This document shows positions 11,539 through 16,813 of a stretch of 64,000 nucleotides of DNA, piece after piece. Each line of letters opens with the position of its first letter. The stretch's first letter is position 1. Origin of the DNA: Pseudobdellovibrio exovorus JSS. GTDB taxonomy: Bacteria; Bdellovibrionota; Bdellovibrionia; Bdellovibrionales; Bdellovibrionaceae. The stretch spans positions 310,001 through 374,000 of the forward strand of contig NC_020813.1 in the NCBI RefSeq assembly GCF_000348725.1, written 5' to 3'. Made by a program: the position numbers and the translations under genes. The notes under the pieces were generated by a model. The model was not told where the DNA came from. It saw only the letters and a program-made list of their open reading frames with translations, and ran no database searches.

Positions 11539-12387
11539 TTATGAGAATCCACCCTCAGTGCGTCGACCATGCGAGTTCACTAAAAACAGTCTTTTGGCTG
11601 AAGGGACCTCTTCAGAAAATTTTTGCGCAGCGGCCAAAGTCATGCGAAATGAATCTGAAATCGTGATCAGACCGACATTCGTCATAATTTGATGGTGAGG
11701 AAAAAAATCAGTCTGGGAAATTTCATAGCGTTTGTTAATAAAATTTAACGGGCAGGGATCATTTGCCCCGAAACGAGTCTCTTTGATGTTACGAACACCA
11801 TCTGTTTTTTCGCTACTAATGGGCTCGGCTGAAATAGCTCCTTCATGGGGTTGCAATGCTTCGCTGATACCTAAGAGTGAATGTCCAGTACCCACTGCGC
11901 CGATGACGGCATCCAAAGTCGGCTGAATTTTATGAAGAAGATGTTCTTGGGCCCACGTTTTGTAGTGCGAACGTAAGGAAGCTCTTTGCATCTGTTGAAA
12001 GGCAAAGAGCTTATTCGCTTTCAAAAAATCTTCATACTCTTGGTAAGCTGTTTGAGGATCACATAGAGTCAACGTCGCTTTCAGCGAAGTGAGTTTTTCT
12101 TTTAAGGGTTCTGCAATACTATTAGGAACAAACAGATGGCATTTTAAATTCAAATGCTGACAGTAATGTGCTAACGAAAGAGCTGTACTACCCGCACTGA
12201 TTTCGCTAACACAGTCCCCAACTCGTAGAGAGCCTGACTTTAGCGCTTGTAATAACTCGGGCAGTACCATGCGATCTTTAATAGAACCACTGGGATTTTC
12301 ACCTTCTAATGTCGTCCACAGTTGTCTTGATTTCAAAGACTCAGATAGACGCTCATCCTGAATGCGTACCAGTAGCGTTCGAATCAC
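11539..12387 (-). CDS. PLP-dependent cysteine-synthase-like enzyme
   Basis: Fold-type II PLP enzyme of 282 residues, related to CysK/CysM but shorter. The PLP lysine lies in the motif NPSGSIKDRM near residue 37, with the phosphate-binding loop at GAVGTGHSLLG. The usual substrate-loop motif (TSGNT type) is replaced by SAGSTALS, so it may not make cysteine from O-acetylserine. The start is GTG, three bases after the stop of the ThiF-like gene, so the two form one operon. Together they suggest a small biosynthetic pathway that uses an amino acid and an adenylated carboxylate or sulfur carrier. That function is inference. Confidence 0.75.
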   Translation of the reverse strand: MIRTLLVRIQDERLSESLKSRQLWTTLEGENPSGSIKDRMVLPELLQALKSGSLRVGDCVSEISAGSTALSLAHYCQHLNLKCHLFVPNSIAEPLKEKLTSLKATLTLCDPQTAYQEYEDFLKANKLFAFQQMQRASLRSHYKTWAQEHLLHKIQPTLDAVIGAVGTGHSLLGISEALQPHEGAISAEPISSEKTDGVRNIKETRFGANDPCPLNFINKRYEISQTDFFPHHQIMTNVGLITISDSFRMTLAAAQKFSEEVPSAKRLFLVNSHGRRTEGGFS

Positions 12388-12390
12388 AAG

Positions 12391-13233
12391 TTAAGCTGCT
12401 TTCTTGAAAGGCTGATACTTATGGGTTTCTAATGTGCGTTCGAGGTAAGAGGCTTTAAATATGCAGGTTTCCACCTTTATAGGATCAGTGAAGATTCCGT
12501 AAGGAGCAAGAACCTCTTTACCTATTCCTAAAATATGTTTTGAAATTTCACTGACAGTTACTGCGGCAGCGATTTCAACTCCGGGCACGACAAAGGGAAT
12601 GTGAGAGTTACGACCAAAAGCTTTATAAAGCTGCTCTTCCATATAGTCAGGAACTTCGGGGCAAAGGAACTGAATAAAGTTTTTGATATTTGTTTCATAG
12701 GGAAGCTCAGGCTTCATACCTGTTAGCTCAGCAAATGTAGGAGTTGTTTTATTAAAGACAACGACGGCTCCGGCGAACCCGAATGATCCGCAGGAAGCTA
12801 CAGGAAGTCCACGTCGAGCAGCTTCTTCGTTCAGAGCTAATTTTTCATTCAAAGCGAAGACATCCACGACATCCACAACCCAATCCACACCTTCTAGAAA
12901 AGCGTGAATATTATTTTTATGAAGTCCTTCAGGAAAGCAGGTGATTTCAAGATCAGGATTAATATCAAGGGCTTCGCGCACCAAGGATTCATCTTTACGT
13001 ACACCAACTGTGGATTCTTTTGCCATACGTTGGCGATTGATATTTGTTCGCTCGTAGACATCAGGGTCAGAGATATGAAATTTTTCGAAACCCATACGGA
13101 CCAGATTTAGAAAGATAGATCCACCTAGACCTAAGCCTCCAATGGCAATTCGAGTCGAGCGAATTTTCTTCATGTGGGGTTCATCGACAATACCTTGGCT
13201 TCTTAAGAATCTCTCTTTATATAGTGAACTCAT
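12391..13233 (-). CDS. ThiF/HesA/MoeB-family (E1-like) adenylyltransferase
   Basis: The 280-residue protein has the E1 Rossmann nucleotide loop GGLGLGGSIFLNLVRMG, then SDPDVYERTNINRQ with the conserved Asp and Arg that handle ATP. The family adenylates a C-terminal glycine of a ubiquitin-like protein, or sometimes a small carboxylate. The CxxC zinc pairs of MoeB/ThiF are absent and no ubiquitin-like partner lies nearby, so a canonical sulfur-transfer role is doubtful. A GGAGG site precedes the ATG. It is divergent from 13306 across 72 bases and followed by the PLP enzyme. Confidence 0.82.
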   Translation of the reverse strand: MSSLYKERFLRSQGIVDEPHMKKIRSTRIAIGGLGLGGSIFLNLVRMGFEKFHISDPDVYERTNINRQRMAKESTVGVRKDESLVREALDINPDLEITCFPEGLHKNNIHAFLEGVDWVVDVVDVFALNEKLALNEEAARRGLPVASCGSFGFAGAVVVFNKTTPTFAELTGMKPELPYETNIKNFIQFLCPEVPDYMEEQLYKAFGRNSHIPFVVPGVEIAAAVTVSEISKHILGIGKEVLAPYGIFTDPIKVETCIFKASYLERTLETHKYQPFKKAA

Positions 13234-13305
13234 TTTGACCTCCGTCTAGGTAAACAAACAAAAAAAATTTAATTATCTTATCTGACTTTCCGTAAAGTAA
13301 CTTGA

Positions 13306-14073
13306 ATGAAAAATGAAACTAATAATGAAAAATTAAAAATAGTAGTGGTCGAATCGCCTTACGACACGTGGGAAGACCCACGAGTAGGGGGGTTCTTAAA
13401 AGATTTCATCGGAGTCAAACTTCGCGGGTATGGGCATGAGTATCCCTATGGAGTTATGCCTGTAGATGGGTCTGATATGATCTCAACTCACATAGCGCTT
13501 TGTCGTGTAGAAGCGGATGAGTCGTTGGTACCGATCATGGCCATGCGCTGGACCTCATTAAAGAAAGCGCGACAGCACTTTATGAATTTTCCAGGAATGA
13601 GTTTGCTTCAACAAGCTGGGGCACCACTGCATCAAAAAGCTCTAGCTGAAATTATTGAAGAAGTAGATCGACAGAACAAAGACATCGTCTACACGGCCTC
13701 ACTCAGTATTGAACCCTCTGAACGAACTTCGAAAGAGCGCTCGCTATTCTTGCGCGAAATTTTAACGATGATGTTTGTCAGCCAGCAAAAAGCAATGGGG
13801 TTTCCTGAGCTTTTTGCCGGAGGCACGTGTCGTTTTAAAATTGAAAAGTGGTTGGATAACTGTGGTTGGAAACCTTTGCAAACGGAAAACGAGGAAAATC
13901 TAGGCCCGATACACATACATCATTTAGCCGGAGAACTGGTTCAGGTGATGCATTTGCAGGAATTCAGTTTTTGGGCTTTAGAGATTTCTCGTAAATGGCA
14001 ACATTTGTGGAATGAAAGATTACTTATTAAAGTTAAACCTCTTTCGACTACAGAAGTTCAACCTGCTGCCTAA
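13306..14073 (+). CDS. Unknown protein, possibly GNAT/autoinducer-synthase-like acyltransferase
   Basis: A 255-residue protein without signal peptide or membrane segment. The order of elements recalls the GNAT fold: IALCRVEADESLVPIMAMRW as a substrate strand region, then TASLSIEP, a long helix ending MGFPELFAGG, and KIEKWLDNCGWKPL resembling the usual ending of GNAT domains. Similarity to N-acyl-amino-acid or homoserine-lactone synthases is a guess from this pattern only. It is divergent from the ThiF-like gene and convergent with the regulator 14085-14993, so it looks like part of one locus. Confidence 0.6.
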   Translation: MKNETNNEKLKIVVVESPYDTWEDPRVGGFLKDFIGVKLRGYGHEYPYGVMPVDGSDMISTHIALCRVEADESLVPIMAMRWTSLKKARQHFMNFPGMSLLQQAGAPLHQKALAEIIEEVDRQNKDIVYTASLSIEPSERTSKERSLFLREILTMMFVSQQKAMGFPELFAGGTCRFKIEKWLDNCGWKPLQTENEENLGPIHIHHLAGELVQVMHLQEFSFWALEISRKWQHLWNERLLIKVKPLSTTEVQPAA

Positions 14074-14084
14074 AAAATTATTAG

Positions 14085-14993
14085 TTACACACGGGCATGC
14101 ATACGAACTTTAGGAAATGTAATCTCTAAAGTGCAGACGGCATCGCCTTGATGGACACAAGACGTCTTTTCGATTTGTGAAGGCGGTAATCCGATATAAC
14201 GAGTTACGTTGGCAATAGAGCCAACTTTCAAATGACATACATGTGTATTACCTAAGTGAGGCACGCCAGATTCCGCTGCGACATGAGGGTTCGTTACATA
14301 CTCGACAGTCATTCCTAGGGCCGTTGAGTGTGTGATCGTGTAGATACAGTTTTGTTCAAAAAGTTTCATACAATCATTGAAGAAAAACTCATAGGCATCT
14401 AGAGGGCACGATAAATTGGCAAACAACTGTGCTATCACTGAATTTTTATTGCCTTCGTATGTAAAAGCACCCATTGCGAAAAAGTCTTGTTCGCTAAATT
14501 GGCGATCATGTAAATAAGCACAAAGATCAGTGATGAATCTCATACTGATGGGCGAGAAAGGATCCTGTAGATCTTTTTCACCGATGCCCAAACTTTTCAT
14601 GGCGTCTAGGCGGAGTCTCCAACCGACATATTTTTCTAGAAAGTTAACAGAAGTGATTGAAGTTCGTTTTCTTCCGAAAGCGGCTTTGGAATAACTTTCA
14701 GGAATTTCTTGATCTGTATTTTGGTGGCGTAAAGCCAGATCTTTAAAATCAATACGTCCTTTTAGCAAAGATAGAGGATCAACATGAAAATGTTCCGAGA
14801 CATTTTCGACAAGTTTATCTGTGATTTCGGCTTTTCCTAAACGTAGATTTTGATAGTCTTTCGCTGGCATTTTCAAAACTTCATGCCATGTTTCATTGTC
14901 AGTATCTGTCGTAAGGCGAATACGCTCTAATGTGTCTAAAAACTTAGAGCTACAGAAAAGGCCATCAAGAGTGAAACCTGCAGTCTGAGACAT
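14085..14993 (-). CDS. HTH regulator with C-terminal V4R-like sensor domain
   Basis: The 302-residue protein starts with a helix-turn-helix-like region (about residues 35-80, WHEVLKMPAKDYQNLRLGKA) as in XRE-type regulators. The C-terminal half ends with CVHQGDAVCTLEITF, the Cys-Gly-Asp-Cys ending seen in V4R/heme-NO-binding-like ligand domains. It probably senses a small molecule and controls the adjacent PLP/ThiF/GNAT-like genes; that link is inferred from position. Two inverted repeats upstream (15053-15071, 15109-15142) are candidate operators. The alternative is an unrelated one-component sensor. Confidence 0.65.
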   Translation of the reverse strand: MSQTAGFTLDGLFCSSKFLDTLERIRLTTDTDNETWHEVLKMPAKDYQNLRLGKAEITDKLVENVSEHFHVDPLSLLKGRIDFKDLALRHQNTDQEIPESYSKAAFGRKRTSITSVNFLEKYVGWRLRLDAMKSLGIGEKDLQDPFSPISMRFITDLCAYLHDRQFSEQDFFAMGAFTYEGNKNSVIAQLFANLSCPLDAYEFFFNDCMKLFEQNCIYTITHSTALGMTVEYVTNPHVAAESGVPHLGNTHVCHLKVGSIANVTRYIGLPPSQIEKTSCVHQGDAVCTLEITFPKVRMHARV

Positions 14994-15108: not shown

Positions 15109-15142
15109 CAGAGATATTTTCCTTATAAGGAAAATATCTCTG
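15109..15142. repeat. Perfect 34-bp palindrome
   Basis: The half-site CAGAGATATTTTCCTTA is followed at once by its exact reverse complement with no loop. It lies eight bases after the CNNM gene end and 116 bases before the regulator start. It could be the CNNM 3' hairpin, but no T-run follows on the minus strand, so an operator role is also possible. Confidence 0.7.
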
Positions 15143-16558: not shown

Positions 16559-16813
16559 ATGGCACAAAATCAACAACAACCGCAGCGTCAGCAGCAGCAA
16601 CCGCAACAACAAAAGCAACAGCAAGCCCAGCAGGGTAAGCAGAACAATCAAGACAACCAAAAAAATGTTCAGAAACCACAATCCCAACAGGTTTCGGGAC
16701 AGCACAACAACCAAAATCAGAGAAGTCAGCAACAGAACAAAGGTTCTCAGCAGACATTCTCTTCAACCAAAACTAAGTCATTTAATAAGTTACCTACTCA
16801 AGGCAACGCTTAG
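16559..16813 (+). CDS. Q/N-rich low-complexity protein
   Basis: An 84-residue protein in which I count 33 Gln and 11 Asn, so over half is Q/N; most of the rest is Lys, Ser, Pro and Arg. There is no signal peptide, membrane segment or cysteine, and it should be disordered and basic. The gene is supported by AAAGGAG seven bases before the ATG and by a strong terminator after the stop. It is short and monocistronic. Function is unknown; a nucleic-acid-binding or condensate-forming (prion-like) protein is possible. Open frames on the opposite strand are mirror images of the CAG/CAA repeats. Confidence 0.8.
   Translation: MAQNQQQPQRQQQQPQQQKQQQAQQGKQNNQDNQKNVQKPQSQQVSGQHNNQNQRSQQQNKGSQQTFSSTKTKSFNKLPTQGNA

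Follow-up and report, generated by a model that had tools for sequence, protein, structure and literature searches.

The closest described relatives of the locus examined here are the acyl-oxazolone clusters oxzAB, tyzACB and trzAS, in which a FeeM-type acyl synthase is accompanied by a ThiF-like enzyme, stand-alone or fused, that works without a carrier (PMC10404671, PMC12856293). In these clusters the ThiF-like proteins or domains next to the acyl synthases (TyzB, OxzB and TrzS) use ATP to cyclise N-acyl amino acids (PMC10404671, PMC12856293), and loss of an aspartate in TrzS abolished cyclisation. The window, the 64,000-nucleotide stretch analysed here (310001-374000 in a genome of 2,657,893 bases on a single contig), contains four genes that recall these clusters: an acyl synthase of predicted FeeM type adjoins a ThiF-like putative cyclase, as it does at 28 further loci of the 65 compared. 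A sequence-only reading had counted an E1 without a carrier as a departure from known pathways; in the acyl-oxazolone clusters this arrangement has a clear precedent (PMC10404671, PMC12856293).

However, the likeness is partial. Unlike the acyl-oxazolone clusters, the locus has no nitroreductase-family flavin oxidase; what it has instead is a CysK-like enzyme together with an HTH-V4R regulator. The genome does contain three nitroreductase genes, at 284788, 2325060 and 2406317, all far from the locus at 321539-324993. Its synthase and E1 are also distant in sequence from their counterparts in those clusters, TyzA, TyzB, OxzA and OxzB having been compared by description. LuxI/LuxR provides a second comparison: here too an acyl synthase with the AHL-synthase fold has its own adjacent regulator, and the pairs diverge together. 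In contrast to LuxI/LuxR, the candidate receptor is an HTH-V4R protein, the synthase lies outside the AHL-synthase Pfam family and extra enzymes would act on the product; neither synthase nor regulator has a Pfam or NCBIfam match to the LuxI (autoinducer synthase) or LuxR families. AHL analogues built from an N-acyl amino acid are the product type expected of sister loci that carry a methyltransferase, which the window lacks. The locus is assigned to neither the oxazolone clusters nor LuxI/LuxR, because the flavin oxidase is absent, the receptor family is different and the synthase falls outside the named families.

The four genes of the locus

All four open reading frames lie where the sequence-only reading had placed them. 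The plus-strand gene at 13306-14073 encodes a putative N-acyl amino acid synthase, identified through an AlphaFold2 model and profile comparison. Its product has no match in Pfam, and its family profile has none among PDB sequences; PF21926 does not match the window protein and matches two of 28 family members weakly (best E = 0.076). The model, predicted from three sequences, is of middling confidence (pLDDT 64, pTM 0.64), and matched GNATs when searched against the PDB. After realignment the first nine rows are LasI, BjaI, RpaI, EsaI, MesI and FeeM at Z 10.3-11.3 (FeeM, 2g0b, at Z 10.8), and generic GNATs follow from Z 10.2 downward, a small lead (Z about 1) for AHL synthases and FeeM. In a separate profile comparison, the family reached P = 4e-4 and 1e-4 with two FeeM-type sets of this phylum, while unrelated families gave 0.1 to 0.6. 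D54-x-x-D57-x-x-x-T-H62 of the synthase aligns over a FeeM-like D-x-x-D-x-x-x-x-H in the second of these sets, and D57 is invariant (28 of 28 sequences); a D-x-x-D at a comparable place is, we assume, common to AHL synthases. Structure prediction and structure search thus support a predicted GNAT of the AHL-synthase/FeeM type, by a narrow margin over generic GNATs, and uphold the GNAT-like pattern that had been claimed for this divergent gene. A dioxygenase reading was rejected against this fold, as it came from one weak match (NCBIfam hilA, E = 0.004, 16.5 of 500 bits) in one of 28 members. Elsewhere in the genome (L084, 2211077-2211415) there is a second FeeM-like GNAT, of 286 aa and above the Pfam cut-off; the type is widespread in the phylum.

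On the minus strand, 12391-13233 encodes a PRK08223-like ThiF/E1-like adenylating enzyme (Pfam ThiF, 7.5e-35), putatively a carboxylate-activating cyclase. Its adenylation site is intact, with the glycine loop, NxNRQ, K80 and D124 conserved, and D124, judged by motif, occupies the place of the TrzS aspartate. It has four cysteines and no CxxC, in line with the lack of zinc cysteines claimed for it, and of the 29 E1s from related loci not one has two CxxC motifs. Its best NCBIfam family is PRK08223 (NF006077; 178 bits, below the cut-off of 266), followed by PRK14851 (129), PRK14852 (98), ThiF and MoeB (about 70) and Rv1355c/TrzS (55 bits). True PRK08223 members form a separate clade in the E1 tree, and the E1s of synthase loci form three clades that are not joined in it, a pattern compatible with repeated recruitment. 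Across the phylum, 12 of 144 genomes have true PRK08223 members, and in eight of these 12 loci (L092, L093, L094, L095, L097, L098, L101 and L102) a FeeM-type synthase adjoins them. These Bdellovibrionota pairs resemble the locus in that an E1, here from the nearest named family, adjoins an acyl synthase sharing that fold. Unlike the locus, however, they have synthases that are true PF21926 members of ~420-450 residues, and they lack a neighbouring V4R gene in the stretches examined. PRK08223 carries only the name 'hypothetical protein', and its FeeM-type N-acyl amino acid synthase neighbours suggest a hint of its function.

A spacer of three bases (12388-12390) separates the E1 gene from that of a fold-type-II PLP enzyme at 11539-12387, also on the minus strand (Pfam PALP, 5.6e-27). 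This CysK/CysM-like outlier scores best with NCBIfam cysKM (84 bits, below the cut-off of 344) and keeps the PLP-lysine motif NPSGSIKDR, K37 being invariant in six homologues. The usual substrate loop of CysK is TSGNT; here it is SAGST, invariant in the same six homologues. The close spacing and the altered loop had both been seen in the sequence-only reading. The gene is confined to six of the 65 loci (the window, L041 and L044-L047), none of which has an alpha/beta hydrolase; it is the accessory of a local sub-group, not part of the core. Near the E1 or PLP gene, L045 has a PAS/GAF hybrid histidine kinase with a receiver (11861-13954), with homologues in L041-L044 and L046-L048; an aconitase occupies this position in the window.

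Convergent with the synthase, the minus-strand gene at 14085-14993 encodes a predicted HTH-V4R regulator and putative receptor for the product, recognised by a weak Pfam V4R match, an HTH profile, and its pairing and co-divergence with the synthase. V4R (PF02830) is matched at E = 7e-4 with a score of 20.1 against a gathering score of 31. The match is weak but consistent, as nine of 24 family members show it at E <= 0.01. Ahead of it lies a Cro/C1-type HTH, supported by profile against PDB (best 1.8e-7) and by the confident part of the predicted model, whose V4R part is too poor in quality for use of its fold. The convergent HTH-V4R-like sensor of the earlier reading holds to this extent. It is the single full-length V4R gene of this family in the window's genome. 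Many other loci (L049-L053, L158, L160 and others) have two V4R genes in tandem with very different sequences, which may point to a heterodimeric receptor or to an anti-activator.

Gaps of 102, 3, 72, 11 and 157 bases around and inside the locus leave no space within it for a ubiquitin-like or JAMM gene, as had been claimed. The 72-base divergent region at 13234-13305 is the presumed promoter region for both transcription units. No consensus promoter was found in it, promoter-like sites being no more frequent than expected, and a comparison of seven loci by eye gave no shared operator motif. The space separating the V4R gene from its next neighbour holds a perfect palindrome of 32 bases at window positions 15110-15141, AGAGATATTTTCCTTATAAGGAAAATATCTCT, a terminator or an operator. 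Farther on, 16559-16813 is an 84-aa low-complexity reading frame of mainly Gln, Asn and Lys.

A conserved pair and its changing partners

A first search with the 13306 protein against 197 relatives found 27 genomes with homologues; in a second, a profile was run on 291 genomes sampled from the whole phylum, of which 71 (in 44 of 163 genera) have the family. Neighbourhoods were compared for 65 synthase genes, made up of the window's own, 26 found by the first search and another 38 found by the second. A V4R gene lies within 4.5 kb of the synthase in 59 of the 65 loci, about a tenth being without one, so that the expected co-occurrence in relatives is borne out. The nearest V4R gene is convergent and less than 300 bases away in 47 of the 64 loci other than the window, with ends that often overlap. 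Within the same stretches, 96 V4R genes fall in the 564 kb near a synthase and one in the 297 kb farther off, and chance neighbourhood is ruled out by this control together with the conservation.

Pairwise distances of synthase and V4R are strongly correlated (r = 0.89, Mantel p = 2e-4, n = 23), shared descent contributing to the value; for synthase and E1 r = 0.59 (n = 19). Some genomes carry several distinct cassettes (G010, G056). The two in G056 share 18% (synthase) and 13% (V4R) identity, and each is 57-66% identical to a cassette in another genome. Cassettes are therefore inherited as units, since those of G056 differ from one another but match those of other genomes. Spread by plasmid or phage was rejected, as the synthase has no match in plasmids and the V4R protein none in phages.

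The E1 is present in 29 of the 65 loci and a SAM methyltransferase in 28, with both in one and neither in seven. This exclusion is significant by a Fisher test that ignores descent (p = 1.5e-10). On the synthase tree there are at least six changes between the E1 and methyltransferase states. Counting well-supported independent branches alone leaves about three contrasts; in nearly every draw all of them point the expected way, but so small a number does not reach significance. Both states occur in genus g98, where L158 (E1) and L160 (methyltransferase) share 61% identity in the synthase and have the same two V4R genes in tandem. The swap would make sense if ring closure and methylation were alternative fates of one carboxylate, the presumed site of methylation. 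Alpha/beta hydrolases stand beside many loci and acyl-CoA dehydrogenases in three, in keeping with acyl chemistry. At three loci without V4R, E1 or methyltransferase (L039:9855-10610, L054:10579-11235 and L056:9970-10614) there is a Haem_oxygenas_2 enzyme, possibly a further tailoring enzyme. The four genes that had been read as a set do belong to a conserved unit, but the set is not fixed: synthase and HTH-V4R form the core, the E1 alternates and the PLP enzyme is accessory.

Proposed pathway and competing explanations

Taken together, the locus probably produces and detects a small hydrophobic derivative of an amino acid, through successive roles of the synthase, the E1, the CysK-like enzyme and the HTH-V4R regulator. 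The 13306 protein would take an acyl group from acyl-CoA or acyl-ACP and attach it to an amino acid at the amino group, a reaction that its predicted fold makes fairly likely. The E1-like protein would then adenylate the free carboxylate of the acylated product, and a ring, an oxazolone or a lactone/thiolactone, would close without a carrier protein; the precedent of TyzB, OxzB and TrzS and the gene neighbourhood make such activation and closure likely. The CysK-like protein may make or alter the amino acid, a step placed ahead of acylation because an N-acylated amino acid cannot form a PLP aldimine. Finally, the HTH-V4R protein would bind the product and switch transcription, a likely role given its pairing with the synthase and the hydrophobic ligands that V4R domains are thought to bind (PMC2253512). 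The earlier proposal of an amino-acid-based metabolite that the regulator detects is still the best reading and largely supported, except that the core differs from the four-gene set. Against it stand the absence of a flavin oxidase, the loci without a V4R neighbour, the narrow margin of the synthase fold and family scores that stay below the Pfam and NCBIfam cut-offs for the synthase, V4R and E1 family alike.

What would such a product be for? A diffusible extracellular signal of the quorum type is a plausible purpose and the likeliest. The more specific proposal is a new class of quorum sensing spread through the Bdellovibrionota, an obligate predator among them, in which an enzyme with the AHL-synthase fold would make an N-acyl amino acid, an E1-type cyclase or a methyltransferase would cap its carboxylate and an HTH-V4R protein would be the receptor. 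This is a tentative proposal, for and against being almost in balance.

Could the product instead stay within the lipid economy of the cell? The genes would then form an acyl-amino-acid lipid pathway for a surfactant, antimicrobial or membrane lipid, in which HTH-V4R would do no more than sense feedback or substrate inside the cell, and cells would not signal to one another. The genomic evidence is the same as for a signal, no signalling role has been proven for the known oxazolones, tryptazolones were enriched inside cells (PMC12856293), and N-acyl tyrosines are reported to alter biofilm composition (PMC7293339). However, co-divergence of synthase and V4R and the presence of multiple cassettes in G010 and G056 suit private signal-receptor pairs better, and a lipid pathway is unlikely, though it deserves weight.

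HTH-V4R might also sense a molecule from prey or environment, which the locus enzymes would modify or detoxify. The host is an obligate predator, and in DmpR/XylR-type regulators the V4R domains respond to aromatic compounds of foreign origin (work cited in PMC2253512). But an outside ligand does not require synthase and V4R to diverge jointly, and the predicted synthase fold is, by its small margin, that of AHL synthases and FeeM and not of a detoxifying acetyltransferase; this explanation is improbable. Less likely still is a carrier-dependent sulfur pathway of the CysM/CysO type, where the E1 would activate a ubiquitin-like carrier and the CysK-like enzyme build a sulfur amino acid from the thiocarboxylate. 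The E1 does adjoin the CysK-like gene in six loci, but the missing room for a carrier or JAMM gene, the E1s without a zinc CxxC pair, the absence of the PLP gene from most E1 loci and an E1 nearer PRK08223 than ThiF or MoeB together leave it very improbable. An antiphage E1-type defence system, suggested by weak PADLOC E1-E2 matches to the E1 core (best 3.5e-10), is scarcely credible and was rejected, since no E2, JAMM, ubiquitin-like or nucleotidyltransferase partner was found and PADLOC has no match for synthase or V4R.

A candidate signalling module

The synthase, the HTH-V4R regulator and their swappable finishing enzymes look like an undescribed chemical signalling module; no prior description of a synthase/V4R module was found in the largely open-access literature searched. 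The purpose of acyl-oxazolones and of most bacterial N-acyl amino acids is an open question, and a synthase family that travels with a candidate receptor would make that purpose directly testable. If the signalling reading is true, predatory bacteria, which are studied as living antibiotics, would gain a means of chemical communication that is open to assay.
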